In this document: piece after piece, positions 20,230-64,000 of the stretch
How positions within the stretch are numbered: position 1 is the first letter of the stretch
Layout: each line of letters starts with the position of its first letter
NCBI RefSeq assembly: GCF_016863275.1
Contig: NZ_BOOO01000022.1
Location: 124,001 to 188,000, forward strand
Direction: 5' to 3'
Source of the DNA: Planotetraspora mira
GTDB taxonomy: Bacteria; Actinomycetota; Actinomycetes; Streptosporangiales; Streptosporangiaceae
Length of the DNA stretch: 64,000 nucleotides
Position numbers and translations under genes: made by a program
Notes under the pieces: generated by a model
What the model saw: the letters and a program-made list of their open reading frames with translations, nothing else
The model's database searches: none
What the model was told of the DNA's origin: nothing

Positions 20230-22002
<1,773 letters not shown>

Positions 22003-51641: not shown

Positions 51642-53642
51642 CTATGACCACGGGGACGGGGCCGGGGGCGCGATGACCGGCGGGCGGTCGTCGCAGGTGA
51701 TGGTGTTCGGCAGCTCCCAGGGGGCGAGCCAGGGGCCGGTGGTGCCGCCGCCGTCGTTGCCGCCGAGGTCCGTCAGCGAGAACTCCGAGCCGGCCGGGGT
51801 GAAGTTGAACGACCCGCAGTTGTTGACGCCCACCGCGCCGACGTTGCGGGCGTCCACGTTCTGGAAGGTCGCGGCACCCTTCACGCGGGCGCTGACCACC
51901 GAGGTGCCCGTGCCGTCGACCCTGATGTCCTTGAAGTGGACGTTCGTGATCGAGTACAGGTCCTTCACCGGGAAGTCGCTGACGAGCATGATCGCGTTGT
52001 AGGTGTTGTCGAGGAAGTGGTCCCCCACGACCTGGATGTCCGCGTCGATGTTCTTCTCCAGCGCGTACAGCCAGATCGCCCCGAGGCCGATGTTCCAGTT
52101 CAGCTCGTACGTGCCGGCGCGGACCGTGGTGTTGTCGGTGATCCACAGGTGCCCGGCGAACGCCTCGGCGCCGAAGCGGGAGCCCGCCTGGATGGCGCTG
52201 CCCTCGCGGATCGGGTCGGCGATCAGGTTGCCCGAGACCGTGTTGTCCTTGCCGCCGTAGATGGCGATGCCGTTCGCGAGCACCGGCGTCTGCACGGTGT
52301 TGTGGTCGAACGTGTTGTTGACGTTGGAGGTCTTCTCCGACCACATGGCGAGGGCGTCGTCACCCGTGTTGCGGATGAAGTTGTTCTTCACGAGCGAGTT
52401 CGTGACGCCGGTGTGGAAGTTCAGGCCGTCGGCGATCTGGTCGACGATGACGTTGTTCGTGACCTTCACGTTCTTCATCGGGCCGTCGAACCACAGGCCC
52501 ACCTTGGTGTGGCGGATGTAGAGGCCGTCGATGGTCGAGTCGCTCATCGCGCCGCCGATGCCGTTCACCTGGTCGGTGTCGATGCGCTCGCGGACGTCGC
52601 CCTCGATCGCGAAGCCGGACAGGTGGACGTTCCTGCTGCCGCCGACCGACGCGTCCTTGCCGTAGAACCCGACACCGGTGTGCACGGAACCGTCGGGGGC
52701 CGGCGTGCTCAGCGCCACCTCACGGCCCTTGATGATCGTGTACCAGCTGCCGGCGCCTTCGATCGTCACGTCGTCGACGATGATGTGGCGGTTCACCTGG
52801 TAGGTGCCCGGCGGGACGTAGACCTTCAGGTGGATGCGCTTCGCGAACGCGATCGCCTTGTCGAACGCGCCGGCGGAGTCGCGCTTGCCGAACGGGTCGG
52901 CGCCGAACGCCAGCACGTTCGCCGCGAGCAGGTTGACCTTCGGCGCCCCGACGAGCTGCGAGTCGAAGACGTCGATGACCGTCCACGCGGCCTTCGCGCC
53001 GGCGGGGACGGCCAGCCGCACCTTGTCGCCCGCGCGGTACTTCTGGCCGAGCAGCAGACGCTGCTCGTCGTAGAAGTGGTTCGGGCGGAACGGCTTGGTG
53101 ATCGTCGGGGTGGGCGTCGTGGCGTTGGGCACGCACGCGCACTCGGTGATCCACCAGTCGGGGTGCAGCAGGTCCGCGTTCGGGTCGTTCGTGAACGGAT
53201 ACTGGTTGTACAGCCACGCGTACTGCGACGTGAGGGTCATGGTGGTGCGGTTCTTGCCGTTCACCGTGACGTCGAGCGGCGAGGTGATGCCGCCGCCCCC
53301 CGGCGCGTCGGGGATGCTGTACCGCACGTTGATCGCGTTGGCCGCGCTCGGCAACGTGAACTCGACGTACTGCCCGGGCGTGAGTTTGACCGCCTTACGG
53401 CCGGATGCCTCCGCGGGCAACGTGTACGCGGTGCGGTCCGGGCCGATGACCGAGCCGTTCGTCCTGGCGTTCTCCGCCTCCTGCTCGGCGAAGTCGACGC
53501 TCGCGCCCCGGCCCGCGACGAGCGACGGGGCGAGGGCGGCGCGCGTCACGACCGGGGACGCCGAGGTGGAGGCGGAGGCGGGAGCCGACAGCGCTACGAG
53601 ACCGGTGGCCGCAAGGGCCACGGATAAGAGGGATCTGAGCAT
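51642..53642 (-). CDS. Secreted GH87-type alpha-1,3-glucanase (mutanase/mycodextranase family)
   Basis: A 666-residue exported enzyme. Signal peptide to about residue 25 (APASAS). Residues about 48-230 form a CBM6/CBM35-like beta domain (FAEQEAENARTNGSVIG; GQYVEFTLPSAANAINVRYS). A right-handed beta-helix follows from about 238 (VYVPPGTYQVNRHIIVDDVT; LYIRHTKVGLWFDGP). D405 (IADGLNFH) and D428/D429 (NTGDDALAMW) keep the 0/+23/+24 spacing of the GH87 catalytic aspartates. It should cut alpha-1,3-glucan or nigeran outside the cell. Last gene of the importer operon, 18 bp after the GH13 gene. No C-terminal binding domains. Confidence 0.85.
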   Translation of the reverse strand: MLRSLLSVALAATGLVALSAPASASTSASPVVTRAALAPSLVAGRGASVDFAEQEAENARTNGSVIGPDRTAYTLPAEASGRKAVKLTPGQYVEFTLPSAANAINVRYSIPDAPGGGGITSPLDVTVNGKNRTTMTLTSQYAWLYNQYPFTNDPNADLLHPDWWITECACVPNATTPTPTITKPFRPNHFYDEQRLLLGQKYRAGDKVRLAVPAGAKAAWTVIDVFDSQLVGAPKVNLLAANVLAFGADPFGKRDSAGAFDKAIAFAKRIHLKVYVPPGTYQVNRHIIVDDVTIEGAGSWYTIIKGREVALSTPAPDGSVHTGVGFYGKDASVGGSRNVHLSGFAIEGDVRERIDTDQVNGIGGAMSDSTIDGLYIRHTKVGLWFDGPMKNVKVTNNVIVDQIADGLNFHTGVTNSLVKNNFIRNTGDDALAMWSEKTSNVNNTFDHNTVQTPVLANGIAIYGGKDNTVSGNLIADPIREGSAIQAGSRFGAEAFAGHLWITDNTTVRAGTYELNWNIGLGAIWLYALEKNIDADIQVVGDHFLDNTYNAIMLVSDFPVKDLYSITNVHFKDIRVDGTGTSVVSARVKGAATFQNVDARNVGAVGVNNCGSFNFTPAGSEFSLTDLGGNDGGGTTGPWLAPWELPNTITCDDRPPVIAPPAPSPWS

Positions 53643-53660
53643 GGGGGGTGTGACCTACCT

Positions 53661-55241
53661 TCAGGAGGAAAGCCAGGCGGTGGTGTCGGTGGGCAGAAGA
53701 TCACCGTCAAGGGGTCCGCTCGTCAGCAGGATCGACTCGTGCGGCGGGAGCCGTACCGGCTGGGAGCCGAGGTTGACCACGCAGATCAGGCCGGAGTCGC
53801 GAGTGAAGGCCAGGACGCCGTCCCCCAGGGGCAGCCAGGCCATCACACCGTCTCCGAGCCGCTCGCGGCGGATGCCCAGAGCAGCGCGGTAGAGGGACAA
53901 CATCGATTCGGGGTCGGCCAGCTGGTCCTCGACCGTCATCGTGCTCCAGCCCGCGGGCTGCGGCAGCCAGGGCACGCCCGTGCTGAAGCCGAACGGCGGC
54001 TCGCCGCCCGACCACGGCAGCGGCACCCGGCAGCCGTCGCGACCGGGGTCGGTGTGTCCCGACCGGGCCCAGATCGGGTCCTCGCGCAGGTCGTCGGGGA
54101 TGTCCTCGACCTCCCACAGGCCGAGTTCCTCACCCTGGTAGACGTAGACGCTGCCGGGCAGGGCCATCGCCAGGAGCGCCGCCGCGCGCGCCCGCCGGGT
54201 GCCCAGCTCGAAGTCGGACGGCATGCCGTGCTTGCGGTCGCCGTGGTCGAAGGACGTGTCCGCCCTGCCGAACCGGGTCGCCGGCCGGGTCACGTCGTGG
54301 TTCGACAACACCCAGGTCGCGGGGGCGCCGATCGGCACGTGAGTGGCCAGCGTCATGTCGATGACGTCGCGCAGGGCGTCCGGCTCCCAGGGGCTCGCCA
54401 GGAACGCGAAGTTGAACGCGGTGTGCATCTCGTCGGGACGCAGGTAGAGGGCGAACCGCTCCTGGTCGGGCAGCCAGACCTCGCCGATCAGGACCCGCTG
54501 TCCGTAATCGTCGGCGATGCGGCGCCACTCGCGGTAGATCTCGTGGACACCGTCGTGGTCGGTGTAGGACTCCTCGACGCTGTCCAGGTCCTTGACGAGC
54601 ACGGCCGCGGAGTCGATGCGGATGCCGTCGACGCCCCGGTCGAACCAGAAGCGCAGCACGTCGAGGAACTCCTCCCGCACGGCGGGGTTGTTCCAGTTGA
54701 AGTCGGGCTGCTCGGGCGCGAACAGGTGCAGGTACCACTCGCCGTCGGGGACCTGGGTCCACGCCGGCCCACCGAAGATCGACTTCCAGCCGTTCGGCGG
54801 GCCGTCGCCGTTTCCAGGACGGAACCAGAACCGCTCCCGAGCCTCCGAACCGGGACCGGCCTCCAGCGCCTCCTGGAACCAGACCATCTGGTCGGAGCCG
54901 TGGTTGGGGACGACGTCGACGATGGTGCGGATGCCGAGGTCGTGCGCCTCCTCGATGAGCTTCTCCGCCTCGGCCAGCGTGCCGAAGACCGGCTCGATGT
55001 TCCGGTAGTCGGCCACGTCGTAGCCGCCGTCGGCCATGGGCGACGGGTACCACGGATTCAGCCAGATGGCGTCCACACCGAGCTCGGAAAGATACGGGAG
55101 ACGTGCCCGCAGCCCTGCCAGGTCACCTGTGCCGTCGCCGTTACCGTCGGCGAAACTGCGCAGGTAGACCTGGTAGATCGAGGCACCCCTCCACCATCCG
55201 TCGGGATTGCGAATCGTCCCCGGGGACGTGCTGCCGGGCAT
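53661..55241 (-). CDS. GH13 alpha-glucosidase (oligo-alpha-glucosidase type)
   Basis: A 526-residue cytoplasmic enzyme without signal peptide. Barrel motifs: WWRGASIYQVYLRSFADGNG, then TIVDVVPNHGSD, nucleophile D210 (GVDGIRIDSAAVL), acid/base E254 (VLIGEVWLPDQ) and D316 (VLSNHDVTRPATR). It should hydrolyse imported alpha-linked gluco-oligosaccharides to glucose; its place in the operon suggests nigero-oligosaccharides (alpha-1,3), but bond specificity is inferred. It lies 30 bp after the MalG-type permease gene. Confidence 0.92.
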   Translation of the reverse strand: MPGSTSPGTIRNPDGWWRGASIYQVYLRSFADGNGDGTGDLAGLRARLPYLSELGVDAIWLNPWYPSPMADGGYDVADYRNIEPVFGTLAEAEKLIEEAHDLGIRTIVDVVPNHGSDQMVWFQEALEAGPGSEARERFWFRPGNGDGPPNGWKSIFGGPAWTQVPDGEWYLHLFAPEQPDFNWNNPAVREEFLDVLRFWFDRGVDGIRIDSAAVLVKDLDSVEESYTDHDGVHEIYREWRRIADDYGQRVLIGEVWLPDQERFALYLRPDEMHTAFNFAFLASPWEPDALRDVIDMTLATHVPIGAPATWVLSNHDVTRPATRFGRADTSFDHGDRKHGMPSDFELGTRRARAAALLAMALPGSVYVYQGEELGLWEVEDIPDDLREDPIWARSGHTDPGRDGCRVPLPWSGGEPPFGFSTGVPWLPQPAGWSTMTVEDQLADPESMLSLYRAALGIRRERLGDGVMAWLPLGDGVLAFTRDSGLICVVNLGSQPVRLPPHESILLTSGPLDGDLLPTDTTAWLSS

Positions 55242-55271
55242 GCTGAATACAGCTCCTTACGGTGAAGGGCG

Positions 55272-56255
55272 TCAGCCCTTGAGGCTGCCGGCGGTGAGAC
55301 CGGCCATGATGTGGCGCTGGAAGATGAAGAAGACGACGATGGTCGGGATGCTCGCGATCACCAGCGAGGCGACCAGCACGTTCTGCGGCATCTGCGAGGA
55401 CAGCGAGGCGATGCCGATGCTGATGGACATCTTGTCGCTGTCCGGCAGGACCAGCAGCGGCCAGACGAAGTCCCGCCAGACGTTCACCACGGTGAGGATG
55501 GAGACCACGCCGAGGATCGGGCGGGAGATCGGCATCACCACCGACCACAGGATGCGGCCGGGCGACGCGCCGTCGATCTCGGCGGCTTCCAGCAGTTCTC
55601 TGGGGATCGAGTCGAAGAAGCGCTTGAGCAGGAAGACGTTGAAGCCGTTCGCCGCGGCCGGCAGCCAGATCGCCCACGGGGTGTTGAGCAGGTCCCAGTG
55701 GAAGAACGGCACGTCCTTCACGGTGAGGTACGCCGGCAGCATGATGACCAGCGGCGGGATCATCAGCGTCGACAACATCAGGGCCAGGACGACCTTGCCG
55801 AGCACCGGGCGGAGCTTGGACAGGGCGTAGGCCGCCGAGACGTCGAACGCGAGGGTCAGCAGCCAGGCGCCGCCCGCGTACAGGGCCGTGTTGCCGAGCA
55901 GCCTGCCCAGCTCAAGCAGATCCCACGCCTGCAGGTAGCCGTCCAGCGAGAAGTGGGTCGGCAGGAAGGTCGGCGGGATGGAATTGAGCTCCTCCGTCGA
56001 CTTCATCGCGCCGGTGATCATCCAGTAGAGCGGGAAGACGAACGCGGCGGTGAAGCTGACGACCGTGATCACCAGCACGGTCCAGTAGATGATCCGGCCG
56101 TGGGTGGTGTTGAGCTGGTGCGGCGAGACGGCGGTGCGGAACTGCGTGTTGATCGGCTTGCGCGGGCGCCGGTCCCGGCCCCCGTCGCGCCCCTCCCGGC
56201 CGGGAGTGAGCGGCGTTTGCGCGGAACGACCCGGCGTGACAGTGACATTGGACAT
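55272..56255 (-). CDS. Sugar ABC permease (MalG type) of the alpha-glucan importer
   Basis: A 327-residue permease. A cytoplasmic Arg-rich tail (about 1-50) precedes six TM helices, starting IIYWTVLVITVVSFTAAFVF. The EAA loop is EAAEIDGASPGRILWSVVMP near residue 220. It ends HIMAGLTAGSLKG like other MalG proteins. ATG 56255 has GGGGGAG upstream; the gene is 12 bp after the MalF-type permease gene, so they are co-translated. Confidence 0.93.
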   Translation of the reverse strand: MSNVTVTPGRSAQTPLTPGREGRDGGRDRRPRKPINTQFRTAVSPHQLNTTHGRIIYWTVLVITVVSFTAAFVFPLYWMITGAMKSTEELNSIPPTFLPTHFSLDGYLQAWDLLELGRLLGNTALYAGGAWLLTLAFDVSAAYALSKLRPVLGKVVLALMLSTLMIPPLVIMLPAYLTVKDVPFFHWDLLNTPWAIWLPAAANGFNVFLLKRFFDSIPRELLEAAEIDGASPGRILWSVVMPISRPILGVVSILTVVNVWRDFVWPLLVLPDSDKMSISIGIASLSSQMPQNVLVASLVIASIPTIVVFFIFQRHIMAGLTAGSLKG

Positions 56256-56267
56256 GGTCGCTCCCCC

Positions 56268-57191
56268 TTACACCGTGTTGTCGCGCGAGACGCGCAGGTA
56301 GATGGCGGAGAACACCATGAGCACGAGCATGAGCATCAGGCCGAGGGCGTTGCCCGCGTTCAGGCTGCCGAAGTTGAAGGCGTACTGATACATGAGATAG
56401 ACGACGGTGACCGTCGAGTTCTCGGGGCCGCCGCCGGTGAGCAGATAGGGCTCGATGAAGACCTGCATGGTCGCCACGATCTGCAGCAGCAGCATCACCA
56501 GCAGGATCAGCTTGGTCTGCGGGATCGTGATGTGCCTGATCCGCTTGAAGAGGCCGGCGCCGTCCAACTCGGCGGCCTCGTACAGCTCGCTCGGGATGGT
56601 CTGCAGGGCGGCGAGGTAGATCAGGGTGCCGCTGCCCATGTTCATCCAGGTGGAGACGATGACCAGCGAGATCAGGGCGGTGCCGCTCGAGTTGAGCCAC
56701 TGGAGCCCGGGCAGGTGGAAGAAGCCGAGGACCTGGTTGAACAGTCCGTAGTCAGGGTTGTAGAACCACTGGAACAGCAGGACGCCCACCGCGGGGGGCA
56801 GCATGACCGGCAGGTAGACGACGAAGCGCAGGTAGGCGCGCGCGTGGCGTAATTCGTTGAGGACGATCGCGGTGATGAAGGGAATCACGTAGCCGCACAG
56901 CAGTGCGAGCAGCGTGAACATCGCGGTGTTGATCCACGCGGGCGCGAAGGCCGGGTCGCTGAAGACGGTGCGGAAGTTCTTCAACCCCACCCATTCGGGC
57001 GCGTCCACGAAGTTCGTCTTCTGGAAGCTGAGGATGACCTGCCGGACCATCGGATACCAGGAGAAGAACGCGAAACAGATAAGAGCGCCGCAGAGGAATC
57101 CATAGGCGGTCAGATTGCGTCGCACGGAACGCCGCAGCTTCGAGGGCTGCCGCCGCCTGCGGTTCGTTACCGGGATACTCGCTGTGGTCAT
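56268..57191 (-). CDS. Sugar ABC permease (MalF type) of the alpha-glucan importer
   Basis: A 307-residue permease with six TM helices (first LTAYGFLCGALICFAFFSWY) and the EAA loop EAAELDGAGLFKRIRHITIP near 215. Unlike the MalF-type protein at 28798 it has no inserted external domain. It follows the binding-protein gene after an 87-bp gap that carries a strong hairpin, which usually lowers permease relative to binding-protein synthesis. Confidence 0.93.
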   Translation of the reverse strand: MTTASIPVTNRRRRQPSKLRRSVRRNLTAYGFLCGALICFAFFSWYPMVRQVILSFQKTNFVDAPEWVGLKNFRTVFSDPAFAPAWINTAMFTLLALLCGYVIPFITAIVLNELRHARAYLRFVVYLPVMLPPAVGVLLFQWFYNPDYGLFNQVLGFFHLPGLQWLNSSGTALISLVIVSTWMNMGSGTLIYLAALQTIPSELYEAAELDGAGLFKRIRHITIPQTKLILLVMLLLQIVATMQVFIEPYLLTGGGPENSTVTVVYLMYQYAFNFGSLNAGNALGLMLMLVLMVFSAIYLRVSRDNTV

Positions 57192-57219
57192 CGTTGTGAT
57201 TCCGATCTCGACGTGCTTG

Positions 57220-57266
57220 CCGGGGCGCCGACCGTGGCCGGATGACGGCCACGGGCGGCGCCCCGG
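57220..57266 (-). terminator. Intercistronic hairpin between binding-protein and permease genes
   Basis: CCGGGGCGCCG (57220-57230) pairs exactly with 57256-57266, and the stem continues inward with GTGGCC/GGCCAC, giving about 20 bp with one mismatch around GGATGAC. It lies just after the binding-protein stop. Such hairpins after MalE-type genes protect the upstream message and partly stop transcription. Confidence 0.8.
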
Positions 57267-57278
57267 ATTATCGAACGG

Positions 57279-58658
57279 TCAGCTCTTCGAGGCGAGCATG
57301 GAGTTGACCTTCGCCTCAGCGTCGGACAGGAGCTGGTCGACGTTGGCGTCCTTCCGGGTGAGGACGGCCGACATCGGGGTGTCGAGAATCGCGTAGATCT
57401 CCTGGGCGTACGGTCCGGGCTCCGGCTTCGGCGAGATGCCCTTGGAGCCTTCGACCCATCCGGCGAACTGTGCGGCGTCGATGTTGGCGTTCGCCGCGCG
57501 CAGGTCGGTGACCGCCTTGCCCGACGGTGTGTCCGCGCCGTAAAGGTCGGGGTAGGGCTGACCGACGGTCAGGTCCTGGCCCTTGGCCCGCACGTAGTCG
57601 AGCTGGCCCTTGCCCGGGGTGAGGAACTCGTACTCGATCCACTTGAGACCGGCCCTGATCTGGTCCGGGGTGGCCTTCGGGTTGATCATGTAGCCGGCGC
57701 CGCCGTTGAGCAGGGCCTTGGCCTCGGGCTGAGCGGTGACGGAGTAGTTCTCGAACTTGCCGCCGAAGTCGTTGCGGAGCGAGATGAGCACGTCGGGCGC
57801 GCCCAGCATCATGCCCATCTTGCCGCCGGCCATGGCCTTCATGAGCGCCGGCCACTCGATGTACAGCTGGGAGCCCATGCTGTTGTCGGTCCACCGCATC
57901 TGCTGGAGGTTCTGCAGCACGGCCTTGCCTTCGGGCGTGTTGAAGGCGGCCTTCTTGCCGTCGTCGCTGATGACCGAGCCGCCGCGGCCGTAGAGCGAGG
58001 CGGTGAAGTGCCAGCCACCGGTGTTGCCGCCGCTGTACTCGCCGTACCCGACGTAACCGGGACCGAGCGCCGCGATCTTCTTGGCGGCGGCCTGCACCTC
58101 GGCCCAGGTCTTGGGCGGGGTGTTCGGGTCGAGGCCGGCCTTGGTGAAGACGTCCTTGTTGTAGACCAGGCCCATGCCGTAACCGTCGGTCGGCAGGCCG
58201 TAGACCTTGCCGTCCTTCTTGAACAGGTCGAGCGAGCTGTTGTAGTCCGGGAACGTCTTCAGCTCGTTGACGTAGGAGGAGATGTCGGCGGCCTGCCCGC
58301 TCTCGATGAGGCGGCCCACGTTGGGGAAGTTGACGTAGAAGACCGTCTCGAGGTCGCCGCTGGCCAGCTTGGGCTCGAAGGTCTTCGGGTCGTAGCAGGG
58401 GAAGGCGTCGGTGACCTTCGAGACCGTGATGTTCGGGTACAGCTTCTGGAAGGCCGCGACGTCCTCTTCGAAGGTCGTGCGCTGCACCTTGTTCGTCTTC
58501 GGCGGCTCACAGTTGACGCTGATCGACACCGGGGCGTTGGGGTTGGCGGACGGCGCGGCGGACTTGCTCGCGGCGGCGCCGTCGTCGCTACTGCCACAGC
58601 CCGCCGCCGCCAGGGCCAAGCCCGCGGCCAGAACTATTGAGAGGTTGCGGGGTTTCAT
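57279..58658 (-). CDS. Sugar-binding lipoprotein of the alpha-glucan ABC importer
   Basis: A 459-residue extracellular receptor. ATG 58658 has GGAGG 8 nt upstream; a longer frame upstream is unsupported. The lipobox AAAGC gives lipidated Cys21, then an Ala/Ser linker. The mature part is SBP family 1 (FQKLYPNITVSKVTDAFPC; VYGLPTDGYGMGLVYNKDVF; WHFTASLYGRGG) with an early Cys pair (VNCEPPK and FPCYDP) that may form a disulfide. First gene of the operon with two permeases, GH13 and GH87, all minus. No ATPase is encoded, so a shared MsiK-type ATPase is expected. Confidence 0.92.
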   Translation of the reverse strand: MKPRNLSIVLAAGLALAAAGCGSSDDGAAASKSAAPSANPNAPVSISVNCEPPKTNKVQRTTFEEDVAAFQKLYPNITVSKVTDAFPCYDPKTFEPKLASGDLETVFYVNFPNVGRLIESGQAADISSYVNELKTFPDYNSSLDLFKKDGKVYGLPTDGYGMGLVYNKDVFTKAGLDPNTPPKTWAEVQAAAKKIAALGPGYVGYGEYSGGNTGGWHFTASLYGRGGSVISDDGKKAAFNTPEGKAVLQNLQQMRWTDNSMGSQLYIEWPALMKAMAGGKMGMMLGAPDVLISLRNDFGGKFENYSVTAQPEAKALLNGGAGYMINPKATPDQIRAGLKWIEYEFLTPGKGQLDYVRAKGQDLTVGQPYPDLYGADTPSGKAVTDLRAANANIDAAQFAGWVEGSKGISPKPEPGPYAQEIYAILDTPMSAVLTRKDANVDQLLSDAEAKVNSMLASKS

Positions 58659-58867
58659 GATTGTTCCCTCCTGGAACGGCGAACCACGACCCGTTTTGGA
58701 GCTCGCTGTCTCGGGGGCATGGGGGGCGCCTCCGATCCAGCTCGGTTGCGAGAAACATACAGAGACATGCAGAACGCAGCAATACTCTGTCATTCATGAT
58801 GCAAAAAAGTGACAGTGAACCCGGGGAAACCTCACCGCATGATCGTTGTCACACTGCGTGAAACGAC

Positions 58868-58900
58868 GGAGCCCCTGGACACAAGGGGTCCAGGGGCTCC
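58868..58900 (-). terminator. 13-bp hairpin after the MalR-like gene
   Basis: GGAGCCCCTGGAC (58868-58880) pairs exactly with GTCCAGGGGCTCC (58888-58900). It lies 13 bp past the lacI stop and insulates it from the importer operon downstream. Confidence 0.8.
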
Positions 58901-58912
58901 GAGAGGGTACGC

Positions 58913-60004
58913 CTACTCGATCACGGGGGCCAGACGCTGCGGGGATCTCCCGGCCGCCGAGGCCTGGGATGACCCGCTTCGCCCGCCCGGCAAGTCCGCA
59001 CGCGGCGCGGGCGCGGTCGAGGACCGGACCACCAGTTCAGGCTCGAAGAGCAGTTCGTTCGCGGGGACGCTGGCGGCGTCGATCTGCGCCACCAGCAGTT
59101 CGACCGCCGCACGGCCCATGGCGTCGATCGGCTGGCGGACCGTGGTCAACGGCGGATCGATGCAGTTCATGAGGGCCGAGTCGTCATAGCCGATGACCGA
59201 GAACTCCTCGGGTACGGCACGGCCCGCGCGGCGGGCGGCCCGGATGGCCCCGAGGGCCAGGACGTCGCTCGCGCAGATCACGCCGGTGACGCCCGCACGG
59301 ATGAGCTTGGCCGCTCCCGCATGCCCGCCCTCGACGGAGAACATGGTGTGTTCGACCTGGTCAGCGAGCAGTTCGAGGTCGTTGGCGTCGGCGAACGCGC
59401 GGAAGGCGGCCAGCTTGCGCCGCGACGGCTCGTGGTCGGGAGGGCCGAGGAGCATGCCGATCCGGCGATGGCCGAGTGCGAGCAGGTGCCCGAGCGCCAT
59501 CTCGGCGGCCGCGGCGTCGTCGCAGGACACCTGGGGGAAACCGAGGTGGTCCACGGCCGCGTTGACCAGCACCGTGGGCAGCTTCCGCTCCAGCACTCGC
59601 TCGTAGTGGTCGTGGGGCGCGTCGCCCTGGGCGTACTGGCCGCCGGCGAAGACGATGCCCGAGACGTGCTGCTGGAGGAGCAGGTCGACGTAGTCCGACT
59701 CCGACACCCCGCCGACCGTCCGGGTGCACAACACCGCGGTGAACCCCTGCTGGGCGAGGGCGCCGCCGACGATCTCGGCGAAGGCGGGGAAGATCGGGTT
59801 CTGCAGCTCGGGGAGGACCAGGCCGACCAGGCGGCCCCTGTCCCCGCGCAGCTGGGTCGGCCGCTCGTATCCGAGCACGTCGAGGGCGGTCAGCACGGCC
59901 TCGCGAGTGGTCTCGGAGACGCCGGGCTTGCCGTTGAGCACGCGGCTCACGGTCGCCTCGCTCACGCCGACCTTCTTGGCCACTTCCGCAAGCCGTCGAG
60001 TCAT
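58913..60004 (-). CDS. LacI family repressor, MalR/Reg1 type
   Basis: A 363-residue LacI regulator. HTH and hinge: MTRRLAEVAKKVGVSEATVS, then RVLNGKPGVSETTREAVLTA. The effector domain (GLVLPELQNPIFPAFAEIVG; VSGIVFAGGQYAQ; VIGYDDSALMNCIDPPLTTV) closely resembles, from memory, the maltose repressor MalR/Reg1 of Streptomyces. It ends with a Pro/Gly/Arg-rich tail. It lies upstream of the importer operon on the same strand and divergent from the second GH87 gene, and probably represses both until alpha-glucan oligosaccharides are present. Confidence 0.93.
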   Translation of the reverse strand: MTRRLAEVAKKVGVSEATVSRVLNGKPGVSETTREAVLTALDVLGYERPTQLRGDRGRLVGLVLPELQNPIFPAFAEIVGGALAQQGFTAVLCTRTVGGVSESDYVDLLLQQHVSGIVFAGGQYAQGDAPHDHYERVLERKLPTVLVNAAVDHLGFPQVSCDDAAAAEMALGHLLALGHRRIGMLLGPPDHEPSRRKLAAFRAFADANDLELLADQVEHTMFSVEGGHAGAAKLIRAGVTGVICASDVLALGAIRAARRAGRAVPEEFSVIGYDDSALMNCIDPPLTTVRQPIDAMGRAAVELLVAQIDAASVPANELLFEPELVVRSSTAPAPRADLPGGRSGSSQASAAGRSPQRLAPVIE

Positions 60005-60006
60005 AG

Positions 60007-60052
60007 GCGCAACTATACGACAAATAGCGCAAGCACTTTCATGAGCTTGCGC
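60007..60052. promoter_or_regulatory. Three GCGCAA boxes upstream of the MalR-like gene
   Basis: GCGCAA occurs at 60007-60012 and 60027-60032 and inverted (TTGCGC) at 60047-60052, exactly 20 bp apart. The last two extend to GCGCAAGC/GCTTGCGC with a 10-bp spacer. Regular two-turn spacing right before a LacI start suggests autoregulatory operators. Confidence 0.55.
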
Positions 60053-60157
60053 ATCCGGTCAGGACCCCTCACCAGCAGTCAAGAAAATCTGACCTGCGGA
60101 GGATCGTTCCATCAGGCCGTTCACCTGCAGGTTGGTCGCTGACGTAACTGTGGCGTG

Positions 60158-60193
60158 ATATTGCGACTTCTCGTCGAAATATTGCAGTTGCGT
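60158..60193 (+). promoter_or_regulatory. TTGC-type repeats upstream of the second GH87 gene
   Basis: ATATTGCG (60158-60165) and ATATTGCA (60179-60186) are direct repeats 21 bp apart, followed by TTGCGT (60188-60193). The motif resembles the boxes at 60007-60052 and TTGCGA at 58746 before the binding-protein gene. Candidate binding sites of the MalR-like proteins; weaker than the previous site. Confidence 0.4.
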
Positions 60194-60294
60194 GTTCGTG
60201 AACCTAATGTGTGGGCCACCTCACCATGTTGCAGAGGTCGACGGTTCAGCGTCCCCGTCGTCCCTCGCGGATCTTCATGCAGAAAGGGTCACTC

Positions 60295-63150
60295 ATGAAA
60301 CGATCCGGAGCCGCCATCGCGGTGGCCGGGGCGCTGATCGCCCTTGGGAGCGTGGTCACGTTCCCGAGTTCCTCCTCGGCGGCGGTGTCGCCCTCGCCCT
60401 TCTCCGTTTCCGGCCGCGGCGCGACCGTGCCCTTCACCGAGATCGAAGCCGAGTCCGCCGCGACGAACGGCGAAGTGATCGGTTCCGACCGGGTGTACAC
60501 GCGCCTGCCGTCGGAGGCGTCGGGACGCCGCGCCGTACGGCTCGACGCGGCGGGCGAGTACGTCGAGTTCACCCTGCCCAAGGCCGCCAACGCGATGACG
60601 GTGCGGTACAGCGTGCCGGACAATTCGGCCGGCACGGGCATCACCGCCCCCATCGACCTGCGCGTCAACGGGACCAAACTGAAGGACCTGTCGTTCACCT
60701 CGAAGTACGGCTGGTACTACGGCGGCTACCCGTTCGGCAACCAGCCGGGCAACCAGCCCCACCACTTCTACGACGAGACCCGCACCATGTTCGGCTCGAC
60801 CCTGGCGGCCGGCACCAAGGTCAGGATCCAGGTGGCCTCCACCTCGGCCTCCCCCTGGTTCGTGGTGGACCTCGCCGACTTCGAACTGGTGCCCGACCCG
60901 GTCCCCCAGCCCGCCGGATCGTTGTCCGTCGACGACTTCGGCGCCGTCCGCAACGGCACGAGCGACTCCACCGCCGCGTTCCAGGCGGCCGTCGACGCCG
61001 GAAAGGCCCAGGGCAAGGCCGTCTACATCCCCGCGGGCACCTACACGCTCTGGGACCACGTGGTCGTGGACGGCGTGACGCTCCGCGGCGCCGGCCCCTG
61101 GTACAGCGTGCTCACCGGCCGCGACCCCACCCAGCGCAACCGCGCCGCCGGCATCTACGGCAAGTACGTCAGCGGCGGCGGATACACCGGTCCCATCCGG
61201 TCCCACGAGGCGGGCGGCCCGAGCCGGGGCGTCACCCTGAGGGACTTCGCCATCATCGGTGAGATCACCGAGCGGGTGGACGACGACCAGGTGAACGCCC
61301 TCGGCGGCGCGATGACCGACTCCGTGGTGGACAACCTCTGGATCCAGCACACCAAGGTCGGGGCCTGGATGGACGGCCCGATGAACAACTTCACCATCAA
61401 GAACAGCCGCATCCTCGACCAGACCGCCGACGGCGTGAACTTCCACACCGGCGTCACGAACTCCACGGTGACCAACACCTTCGTACGCAACAGCGGTGAC
61501 GACGGCCTGGCGATGTGGCCCGACCGGGTGGCGAACGTCAACAACTCCTTCACCTTCAACACCGTGGTCGCGCCGGTCCTCGCCAACAACATCGTCACCT
61601 ACGGCGGCAGGGACATAAAGATCACCGACAACGTGGTGAGCGACACGGTGACCAACGGCGGCGGCATCCACATCGCCAACCGCTATCCGGGCGTCAACTC
61701 CGGCCAGGGCACCGCGGTCGCCGGCACCATCACGGCCGCGCGCAACACGCTGATCCGGGCCGGCAACAGCGACTTCAACTGGAACTTCGGCGTCGGCGCC
61801 ATCTGGTTCGACGGGCTCAACGAACCCGTCAACGCGACCATCAACGTGACCGACACCGACATCATCGACAGCTCGTACGAGGCCATCCAGTTCATCGAGG
61901 GCACCACGAGCACCGTCAACTTCTCCAATGTGAAGATCGACGGCACCGGGACCTACATGATCCAGGCGCAGTCGGGAGCGACGACCACGTTCAACAACGT
62001 GACCGCCGCCCACATCGGTGCGGGGACCGCGATCCACAACTGCGTGGGCAACGCGTTCTCCCCCGTGTACGGCACGGGCAACTCCGGCTGGAGTCCGTCC
62101 TCGACCACCTGCACCGGTCAGTGGCCGACGCCGAACTACATCTACGACGGCACCGGCACCCCGCCGCCGGACACCCCCACCCCGACTCCCCCGGTGACCC
62201 CGACCCCCACGCCGACTCCGACTCCGCCCACCTGTTCCGTCGGGACCGGTGACCTGGCCCGGGGCAAGCCCGCCACCGCGACCACCAGCACGCAGTCGTT
62301 CAGCCCCGCGAACGCGGTGGACGGCGACGCGAACAGCTACTGGGAGTCGGCCAACAACAGCTTCCCGCAGTCGATCACCGTCGACCTGTGCGGCGTCGCA
62401 TCCGTGAACCGGGTCGCGCTGAAGCTGCCGCCGAGCTCGGCGTGGGCCACCCGCACCCAGACCCTGTCCGTTCAGGGCAGCACCGACGGGTCGAACTTCA
62501 CGACGCTCGCCGCGTCGGCGGGACGCACCTTCGATCCCGCGAGCGGCAACACCGTGAACATCTCGTTCAACGCGGCCGACGCCCGCTACGTCCGGATCAC
62601 CGTCACGGGCAACACGGGCTGGCCGGCCGGGCAACTCTCGGCGCTCGAGGTCTACGGGTCCGGATCGACCCCGCCGCCCGTCACCCCCACGCCGACCCCG
62701 ACCCCGACTCCCACGCCCACTCCTCCTGCCGGAGGGAATCTGGCCGGGGGCAGGCCGATCAGCGCGAGCAGCCACTCTGACGTCTACGTGGCCGGCAACG
62801 CCGACGACCGCAACGCGAACACCTACTGGGAGTCGGCCAACAACGCCTTCCCCCAGACGCTGACCGTCGACCTCGGCTCCGCCACCAGCGTCAGCAAGGT
62901 CGTGCTCAAGCTGCCGCCCGCCGCCGCCTGGGCCACCCGCACCCAGACGTTGTCCCTCCAGGGCAGCACCGACGGCTCCACCTACAGCACGATCACAGGA
63001 TCCGCGGGCTACACGTTCAACCCCGCCAGCGGCAACACCGCGACGATCACCTTCCCGGCGACCAGCAGGCGCTACCTGCGGCTGAACATCACCGGCAACA
63101 CCGGCTGGCCCGCCGGCCAGATCTCCGAGTTCGAGGCGTACGCCTCGTAG
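60295..63150 (+). CDS. Secreted GH87-type alpha-1,3-glucanase with two discoidin-like domains
   Basis: The start is ATG 60295 with AAAGGG upstream. 951 residues: signal peptide (about 1-30), CBM6/CBM35-like domain (about 45-200), beta-helix (about 210-610; AVYIPAGTYTLWDHVVVDG) with D379 (TADGVNFH) and D402/D403 (NSGDDGLAMW), the GH87 catalytic pattern. Then a Pro-Thr linker, a discoidin/F5-8C-like domain (about 648-788), a second Pro-Thr linker and a second such domain (about 814-951). The two end domains are near copies (YWESANN; WATRTQTLS; NTGWPAGQ), a recent duplication. They probably bind insoluble alpha-1,3-glucan, as in Bacillus and Paenibacillus mutanases. Confidence 0.87.
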   Translation: MKRSGAAIAVAGALIALGSVVTFPSSSSAAVSPSPFSVSGRGATVPFTEIEAESAATNGEVIGSDRVYTRLPSEASGRRAVRLDAAGEYVEFTLPKAANAMTVRYSVPDNSAGTGITAPIDLRVNGTKLKDLSFTSKYGWYYGGYPFGNQPGNQPHHFYDETRTMFGSTLAAGTKVRIQVASTSASPWFVVDLADFELVPDPVPQPAGSLSVDDFGAVRNGTSDSTAAFQAAVDAGKAQGKAVYIPAGTYTLWDHVVVDGVTLRGAGPWYSVLTGRDPTQRNRAAGIYGKYVSGGGYTGPIRSHEAGGPSRGVTLRDFAIIGEITERVDDDQVNALGGAMTDSVVDNLWIQHTKVGAWMDGPMNNFTIKNSRILDQTADGVNFHTGVTNSTVTNTFVRNSGDDGLAMWPDRVANVNNSFTFNTVVAPVLANNIVTYGGRDIKITDNVVSDTVTNGGGIHIANRYPGVNSGQGTAVAGTITAARNTLIRAGNSDFNWNFGVGAIWFDGLNEPVNATINVTDTDIIDSSYEAIQFIEGTTSTVNFSNVKIDGTGTYMIQAQSGATTTFNNVTAAHIGAGTAIHNCVGNAFSPVYGTGNSGWSPSSTTCTGQWPTPNYIYDGTGTPPPDTPTPTPPVTPTPTPTPTPPTCSVGTGDLARGKPATATTSTQSFSPANAVDGDANSYWESANNSFPQSITVDLCGVASVNRVALKLPPSSAWATRTQTLSVQGSTDGSNFTTLAASAGRTFDPASGNTVNISFNAADARYVRITVTGNTGWPAGQLSALEVYGSGSTPPPVTPTPTPTPTPTPTPPAGGNLAGGRPISASSHSDVYVAGNADDRNANTYWESANNAFPQTLTVDLGSATSVSKVVLKLPPAAAWATRTQTLSLQGSTDGSTYSTITGSAGYTFNPASGNTATITFPATSRRYLRLNITGNTGWPAGQISEFEAYAS

Positions 63151-63162
63151 TCGGAACGGAAG

Positions 63163-63195
63163 CCCGTTGGAGGAGTGGACGCCTCCTTCAACGGG
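63163..63195 (+). terminator. First of two tandem hairpins after the GH87 gene
   Basis: CCCGTTGGAGGAG (from 63163) folds back on CTCCTTCAACGGG (ending 63195) with one mismatch around TGGACGC. It shares GGAGTGGACGCCTCC with the second hairpin. Confidence 0.65.
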
Positions 63196-63198
63196 AGG

Positions 63199-63231
63199 CC
63201 CGGAGAAGGAGTGGACGCCTCCTTCTCCGGG
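63199..63231. terminator. Second tandem hairpin between convergent genes
   Basis: CCCGGAGAAGGAG (63199-63211) pairs exactly with CTCCTTCTCCGGG (63219-63231) around TGGACGC. It lies between the GH87 gene (plus) and the lacI gene (minus), so it may serve both. Confidence 0.75.
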
Positions 63232-63280
63232 TTCCGTTCTCGCCGTGCCCATCCATTCTCATCCGGATTCGCCGGAACGC

Positions 63281-64000
63281 TCAGGACGTGAGAGCTCCCA
63301 TTCGCCCCGTCGACGACCGGACGACGAGCTCGGGTTCGAAGAGAAGCTCCCCCGTCGCCACGGCCGCGCCGTCGATCTGGCTGACCAGCAGCTCCACGAC
63401 GGCCCTGCCCATCGCCTCGATCGGCTGCCGGATGGTGGTCAGCGGCGGGTCGACACAGTTCATCAGCGCCGAGTCGTCGTACCCGATGACCGAGACGTCG
63501 TCGGGGACGCGCATCCCCTCACGCCTGGCCGCCCTGATCGCGCCGAGCGCGAGCGGGTCACTGCCGCAGACGATGCCGGTGACCTGCTGTCGCAGCAGCT
63601 TCACCGCCGCCGCGTGGCCGCCCTCCAGCGAGTGCATGGTGTGCTCGACCCGCTGGCCGCCCTGCCCGCGGAACGCGTCGAGCTTGCGGATCGACGGCAT
63701 GTGATCCGGCGGGCCCACGATCAGGCCGATGCGCTCGTGGCCCAGCGCGCGCAGGTGTGCCATGGACTGCTCCACCGCGATCGTGTCGTCGCAGGAGACA
63801 CGCGGGAACTCCCAGTGGTCGGCGGCCGCGTTCACCATCACGGTCGGAAGGCGCCGGTCGATCAGCCGGAGATAGTGCTCATGCACGACGCCCGACTGCG
63901 TGTACAGCCCGCCGGCGAAGACCACGCCCGAGACCTGCTGCTGGAGCAGCAGGTCGACGTAGTCGGCCTCGGAGACTCCGCCGACGGTCCGCGTGCACAA
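63281..64000 (-). CDS. LacI family repressor, second MalR/Reg1-type paralogue (partial, N-terminus off window)
   Basis: About 240 residues of the effector domain are visible; the HTH lies beyond the window edge. It is a close paralogue of the regulator at 58913 (CTRTVGGVSEADYVDLLLQQ; VIGYDDSALMNCVDPPLTTI; LLFEPELVVRSSTG) but about eight residues shorter in one surface segment (DAFRGQGGQRVEHTM where the paralogue has a longer helix). It lacks the Pro/Gly tail. It is convergent with the second GH87 gene and may control that gene or genes beyond the edge. Confidence 0.92.
   Translation of the reverse strand: MCTRTVGGVSEADYVDLLLQQQVSGVVFAGGLYTQSGVVHEHYLRLIDRRLPTVMVNAAADHWEFPRVSCDDTIAVEQSMAHLRALGHERIGLIVGPPDHMPSIRKLDAFRGQGGQRVEHTMHSLEGGHAAAVKLLRQQVTGIVCGSDPLALGAIRAARREGMRVPDDVSVIGYDDSALMNCVDPPLTTIRQPIEAMGRAVVELLVSQIDGAAVATGELLFEPELVVRSSTGRMGALTS

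Follow-up and report, generated by a model that had tools for sequence, protein, structure and literature searches.

The window analysed here, a stretch of 64,000 nucleotides from the soil actinobacterium Planotetraspora mira (positions 124001-188000 of contig C22 in a genome of 9.03 Mb), ends in a group of genes that probably forms a locus for the utilisation of alpha-1,3-glucan under coordinated control. The probability of this reading, in which the function is deduced from sequence, is put at about 0.75. The locus comprises an operon for a solute-binding lipoprotein (solute-binding protein, SBP), the MalF- and MalG-type permeases of a CUT1 importer, a predicted GH13 alpha-glucosidase and a GH87 enzyme, together with a divergent second GH87 gene and two genes for MalR-type LacI regulators (Table 1). 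Computed support comes from the families of the parts, a linkage between GH87 genes and importer conserved over genera and families, the existence of a separate maltose (mal) operon, and the rarity of the promoter found before the SBP and GH87 genes.

In the proposed route, both GH87 enzymes would be secreted and would cut alpha-1,3-glucan, either fungal cell-wall glucan or mutan, to short oligosaccharides. These would be bound by the lipoprotein and imported through MalF and MalG, powered by an ATPase encoded elsewhere, and the GH13 enzyme would hydrolyse them to glucose in the cytoplasm. The MalR-type repressors may control the locus, LacI1 acting through CGCAAG-N12-CTTGCG at its own promoter. 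A common promoter/operator architecture may serve to switch the importer operon together with the divergent GH87 gene, with release probably following the arrival of the imported sugar.

The gene placement, with the unit SBP-MalF-MalG-GH13-GH87 and two LacI genes, is that of a first-pass annotation of the same sequence, and the gaps of 87, 12, 30 and 18 bp given there are borne out by the open reading frame (ORF) coordinates (57279/57191, 56268/56255, 55272/55241 and 53661/53642). Two starts have been moved. The SBP best begins at 58658, a lipoprotein start preceded by AGGAGG, and not at 58793, because the conserved promoter occupies 58754-58804; the divergent GH87 gene is placed at 60295 instead of 60211.

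Table 1. Genes and putative control elements of the locus, in window coordinates
Feature	Position	Strand	Remarks
GH87 enzyme of the operon	51642..53642	-	666 aa; catalytic unit only; N-terminus secretion-type by eye; Asp405, Asp428, Asp429
GH13, predicted alpha-glucosidase	53661..55241	-	By eye without secretion signal; D-S-A-A at nucleophile, short loop adjoining
MalG-type permease	55272..56255	-	Pfam BPD_transp_1
MalF-type permease	56268..57191	-	Pfam BPD_transp_1
Solute-binding lipoprotein (SBP) of CUT1-type importer	57279..58658	-	Pfam SBP_bac; predicted fold near oligosaccharide-binding SBPs
Putative promoter/operator of SBP operon	58754..58804	-	TTGC-N18-TTGCTG-N17-TATGTT
Strong hairpin, probable terminator	58868..58900	-	Between LacI1 and SBP promoter
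LacI1, MalR-type regulator	58913..60004	-	LacI helix-turn-helix and sugar-binding domain
Inverted repeat CGCAAG-N12-CTTGCG, probable autoregulatory operator	60028..60051	.	23 bp before LacI1 start
Putative promoter/operator of divergent GH87 gene	60161..60210	+	TTGC-N17-TTGCAG-N17-TAATGT; architecture as at SBP promoter
Divergent GH87 enzyme	60295..63150	+	Two C-terminal F5/8 type C modules; Asp379, Asp402, Asp403 (from M1)
LacI2, second MalR-type regulator	63281..64000	-	Gene runs on to 64285 past window end; 77% identical to LacI1

Conserved linkage of GH87 genes and importer

The survey of the parts covered 345 genomes from the order, those listed all carrying the label of the same family, with GH87 recognised by PF22815 and the SBP by matches at E<=1e-60. 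GH87 was present in 141 genomes, the SBP in 169 and both in 137; four genomes had GH87 without the SBP and 32 the SBP without GH87. By genus, the SBP occurred in 28 of the 29 genera with GH87 and in 9 of the 41 without it. The Fisher values of 1e-58 for genomes and 1e-10 for genera ignore relatedness. Linkage is a stronger test than co-occurrence. At least 90 of the 150 SBP matches listed lie no more than 10 kb from a listed GH87 (73 pairs divergent, 16 on the same strand and one convergent), and for the canonical maltose-binding protein MalE, taken as a control, none of the 102 listed matches comes that close to a listed GH87.

The importer core is stable in composition. SBPs of other Planotetraspora are 96-97% identical to that of the locus. 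Forty regions were fetched, 20 with GH87 near and 20 with none listed near, and all of them encode the GH13 enzyme, both permeases and the SBP; a match to LacI1 of at least 67% is found in 37. Among 80 named loci, the best of one contig scan with some stretches ending at contig ends, GH13 is present in 80, LacI in 79 and GH87 within the stretch in 48. Beyond the family, one place was considered in each of 20 of the 33 GH87-bearing genomes. Eleven of these GH87 loci contain, in varying gene order, the SBP (32-47% identity), MalF, MalG, GH13 (60-66%) and LacI, two contain LacI only, and seven contain none of the parts or a partial, unrelated set. An association that is kept despite a reshuffled gene order argues for a functional bond. 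Conservation of the gene neighbourhood had been suggested as a check in the first-pass annotation, and the linkage of SBP and GH87 does recur across genera and families.

GH87 enzymes

Both GH87 proteins of the locus are closest to PDB 7c7d, an alpha-1,3-glucanase (334 bits for the operon enzyme, 385 bits for the divergent one), followed by 5zru and 6k0m, which, going by a reference list, are presumably Bacillus Agl-KA and Paenibacillus Agl-FH1, respectively. Pfam assigns CatAgl_D1 and CatAgl_D2 to each of them, and the divergent enzyme has two F5/8 type C stretches as well. Their catalytic parts are 42-43% identical, and their N-termini resemble signal peptides by eye. Asp residues at 0/+23/+24, presumably the catalytic ones, occur in both and align with 5zru; three Asp residues in GH87 are described in PMC10696023. 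The family and the Asp spacing claimed earlier are thus as found here, and the assignment stayed with GH87 when another beta-helix family was considered as the outcome that would contradict it.

The genome contains four GH87 genes. The two outside the locus are at C22:220669, nearest 6k0m (420 bits), and on another contig at C9:124246, nearest 5zru (236 bits). The four catalytic units are only 32-43% identical to each other, and they are therefore regarded as old paralogues. The products of both outlying genes (C22:220669-221142, L174:13479-17072; C9:124246, L173:7999-11646) have N-terminal F5/8 type C and CARDB modules, and a MalR-like palindrome, TGCAAGATTCTTGCA, lies upstream of the C9 gene. 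In Nonomuraea, Planobispora, Planomonospora and others, it is a GH87 of the 6k0m type that adjoins an importer of the locus type. The GH87 beside the importer in Planobispora longispora (L196:5199-5452) matches in two pieces, with the domain match in an open frame of 169 aa, and this copy may be broken.

GH87 includes mycodextranases as well as mutanases, and the former are known from actinomycetes (PMC13421300; PMC10696023; PMC11475409). The substrate could accordingly be nigeran, with its alternating alpha-1,3 and alpha-1,4 bonds, at least one GH87 being a mycodextranase; a GH13 alpha-1,4-glucosidase of the maltase type would suit the resulting mixed-linkage oligosaccharides. The strong PDB matches of all four catalytic units are nevertheless to proteins named alpha-1,3-glucanase, in a comparison that included no mycodextranase sequence, and nigeran is considered a rather unlikely substrate.

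A promoter shared by SBP and GH87 genes

The SBP genes are preceded by TTGC-N17/18-TTGCnG-N17-TAnnnT, and the promoter of the divergent GH87 gene is built likewise. The pattern TTGCN{17,18}TTGCNGN17TAWKKT, defined after these sites were known, has exactly two matches in 9.03 Mb, at 58754-58804 (-) and 60161-60210 (+), and none when reversed as a control. The same pattern gave 43 matches in 100 related loci (2.0 Mb) and none in each of 10 block shuffles. Of these matches, 22 stand before GH87 genes, 19 before SBP genes and two elsewhere; both kinds occur together in eight loci. The GH87-side matches divide into 14 of the divergent-gene type and eight, in Nonomuraea, of the 6k0m type represented at C22:220669, for which the distance of 1.6-1.9 kb was taken to the catalytic part in a gene with N-terminal modules. 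Two distant GH87 types behind one type of promoter are evidence for recruitment. The genera with GH87-side matches are Planotetraspora, Herbidospora, Acrocarpospora and Nonomuraea, and because so few genera contribute, the counts overstate independence.

The two stray matches belong to Sphaerisporangium album (L207:8593) and S. corydalis (L216:8390), both on the minus strand. They lie before LacI1 on the opposite strand and face away from it; on that side no GH87 ORF was visible behind them, and they may be what is left of a GH87 gene since lost.

The presence of four GH87 genes would also suit an organism in which these enzymes serve mainly to attack and lyse fungi, the importer being an independent neighbour. 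That one GH87 gene begins 18 bp behind the GH13 gene in the same orientation, and that the promoter is shared and the linkage conserved, makes such an arrangement very improbable.

The importer, its GH13 enzyme and the separate maltose operon

An SBP of the SBP_bac family adjacent to two BPD_transp_1 permeases (Pfam) identifies a CUT1 importer. Importers of this class commonly rely on a shared MsiK-type ATPase encoded elsewhere; the genes assigned between 51.6 and 64.3 kb include no recognisable ATP-binding subunit, and an MsiK-type ATPase elsewhere was not searched for. The predicted fold of the SBP is close to those of oligosaccharide-binding SBPs. The nearest solved ones by sequence and fold include PDB 5f7v, Lmo0181, which binds cycloalternan, and 7bvt, CMMBP, which binds cyclic maltosyl-maltose (PMC7676653). 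Both ligands are alpha-glucan oligosaccharides, and cycloalternan contains alpha-1,3 bonds; the two proteins differ from the locus SBP in that they are only 21-22% identical to it and their ligands are cyclic. The closest importer paralogue in the genome is a CUT1 system on contig C31 (L172:7493-10738), with a MalF of 48-49% and an SBP of 37% identity, beside a GH2-like gene.

The next match to LacI1 outside the locus (54%) and a GH13 match (60%) adjoin each other on contig C6, with a MalF-like permease just 30% identical to that of the locus. The SBP encoded there scores 388 bits to GacH and 353 bits to the MalE of Streptomyces scabiei (8art). This set, with its MalE-like SBP, indicates that the canonical mal operon stands apart from the locus. 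The possibility that the locus is itself the canonical MalEFG-AglA maltodextrin operon was rejected, the locus SBP scoring only 39 bits to 8art against 353 for the C6 protein. The other next GH13 match (61%) is on contig C41, and no importer was recognised around it.

The GH13 enzyme of the locus carries an active-site signature of its own, distinct from that of the mal-operon GH13. D-S-A-A at the catalytic Asp and a shorter loop are found in the window and in 39 of the 40 fetched loci (one is unreadable), whereas the enzymes on C6 and C41 read D-V-A. In 100 loci, R[IV]DSA is present in 90 of the 91 GH13 matches above 55% identity, the remaining one being too partial to read. The residue position after the GH13 nucleophile bears on specificity. 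Loop 4 has been discussed as a specificity factor in QsGH13 (PMC8928221).

LacI regulators

LacI1 has LacI helix-turn-helix and sugar-binding domains, and LacI2, completed from sequence past the window end (63281-64285), aligns with it and with the LacI of the mal operon. The two regulators of the locus are 77% identical, and their helix-turn-helix is the same over VSEATVSRVLNGK; in LacI2 the sugar-binding domain is shorter by about eight residues and a C-terminal tail is missing. The inverted repeat before LacI1 is a putative, probably autoregulatory, operator of this protein. Its exact form occurs at one place in the genome (five for the reversed control pattern), and in the 100 loci every copy adjoins a LacI start, whether exact (20) or relaxed (35). 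In 92 upstream regions of LacI1 starts, 151 CGCAAG/CTTGCG words were counted, with a mean of 33 and a maximum of 45 in 10 shuffles. The repeat shares its CTTGC core with the MalR-type word CTTGC(A/T)G known from the literature (PMC5526262). A hairpin, probably a terminator, stands between LacI1 and the SBP promoter (41-nt stretch, -29.7 kcal/mol, z -6.8). In four Microtetraspora loci (L202, L203, L205, L206) both LacI types are present while the stretch fetched contains no GH87, which shows that LacI2 is not coupled to the second GH87.

Dedicated or general import

Several observations weigh against the alpha-1,3-glucan reading. The importer core stands without GH87 in 32 of the 169 genomes with the SBP and, within the fetched stretch, in 32 of the 80 named loci, including all 13 from Kribbella, so that the ligand of the SBP need not derive from the cell's own GH87. 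Canonical MalE is likewise commoner in GH87 genomes (78/141 vs 21/204), and genome-level co-occurrence alone is therefore unspecific. Sphaerisporangium album (L207:4278-6032; alpha-amylase and CBM20 by Pfam) and S. corydalis (L216:3513-5264) each have a gene for a secreted alpha-amylase-like protein close to the importer. The promoter pattern was built from the two genome sites after the SBP upstream regions of relatives were known, and the matches there arise partly by construction. The relaxed LacI1 repeat occurs in just 35 of the 93 loci having such a LacI, and CGCAAG shows no enrichment upstream of SBP genes (19, with a shuffled mean of 16.7 and maximum of 25), so that LacI1 is at most a candidate regulator of the importer. 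The word TTGCAAG is enriched there (13 vs 1.5 shuffled).

The cores without GH87 and the amylase-like neighbours would suit a second, general importer of alpha-glucosides or maltose, AglEFG-like and under a MalR-type repressor, beside which the GH87 genes would have been recruited as one of several polymer sources. The identities of 54% and 60% between the LacI and GH13 of the locus and their mal-operon counterparts point the same way. In Actinoplanes, expression of aglEFG and of the maltase gene amlE is higher during growth on maltose than with glucose (PMC6828939). This alternative, which overlaps with the alpha-1,3-glucan reading, is a genuine possibility, but the less probable one: a general importer would not be expected to lie so regularly near GH87 when canonical MalE never does among the matches listed, nor to share a promoter that is near-specific to SBP and GH87 genes, and a canonical mal operon exists separately. 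The earlier claim of an alpha-1,3-glucan locus is thus upheld by co-occurrence, linkage, the shared promoter, the separate mal operon and the nearness of the GH87 enzymes to deposited alpha-1,3-glucanases; a strict dedication of the importer is not, as the core also stands without GH87.

Relation to described systems

Among the nearest described systems is the nigerose cluster of Lachnoclostridium phytofermentans, with a GH65 nigerose phosphorylase, a GH31_u1 enzyme, an ABC importer, a LacI regulator and GH87 nearby, for which the breakdown of alpha-1,3-linked glucose has been proposed (PMC9061262). The GH87, ABC importer and LacI recur in the present locus. The inner enzymes differ, GH65 phosphorylase and GH31 alpha-1,3-glucosidase there and a GH13 with its own signature here; Pfam finds only GH87, GH13, SBP, permease and LacI families in eight proteins of the locus, to which the search for GH65 and GH31 was confined. 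The cluster also belongs to another phylum, and the actinobacterial system adds linkage over many genera and a shared promoter. The Streptomyces MalR-MalEFG-AglA operon, in its familiar layout, has a LacI regulator, an SBP, two permeases and a GH13 in the CUT1 arrangement, as the locus does. Its operator has a core of the CTTGC type (PMC5526262), like the putative operator before LacI1. The locus departs from it in an SBP far from MalE, a permease of 30% identity, DSAA instead of DVA, and the attached GH87 genes. A putative polysaccharide utilisation locus (PUL) of Prevotella melaninogenica, with GH87, GH97, GH99 and SusC/SusD-like proteins (PMC13421300), similarly combines a GH87 mutanase with transport and regulation in a cluster for glycan use, but uptake is by the Gram-negative SusCD outer-membrane system and the inner enzymes are others. 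According to its authors, to their knowledge no GH87 PUL has been characterised experimentally. Growth of Streptomyces on mutan is known (PMC11475409), and the word "transporter" is absent from the excerpt of that paper.

No description of this actinobacterial locus was found among the open-licence papers listed. The first-pass annotation, which knew of no described dedicated import and regulation system for alpha-1,3-glucan, needs qualifying here, since GH87 with an ABC importer and LacI had already been proposed in L. phytofermentans (PMC9061262). The locus is a conserved actinobacterial version of a known kind of system and not a new kind.

A bolder proposal, for which the chances are put somewhat below even, is that Actinobacteria hold a dedicated, uncharacterised family of nigero-oligosaccharide importers. 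It would have its own GH13 subtype (DSAA) hydrolysing alpha-1,3-linked glucose. Its promoter/operator would have brought together, in a single alpha-1,3-glucan regulon, GH87 paralogues that differ in origin: the 7c7d-type of Planotetraspora, Herbidospora and Acrocarpospora and the 6k0m-type of Nonomuraea. The locus supplies a concrete importer, GH13 subtype and promoter as test objects. Since 28 genera of the order have both GH87 and the SBP, a single series of experiments would serve the annotation of many genomes. The locus may also provide a sugar sensor that responds to alpha-1,3-glucan, and its promoter a means of finding more mutanases.

Other glycosidase genes

Another GH13 is encoded within the window at 20374-21876, about 32 kb from the locus; it has a Malt_amylase_C domain and is 39% identical to the GH13 of the locus. 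In Microtetraspora niveoalba (L128:3096-4724), a GH8 with CBM6/35 adjoins the importer core, in a stretch with both LacI genes and no GH87.

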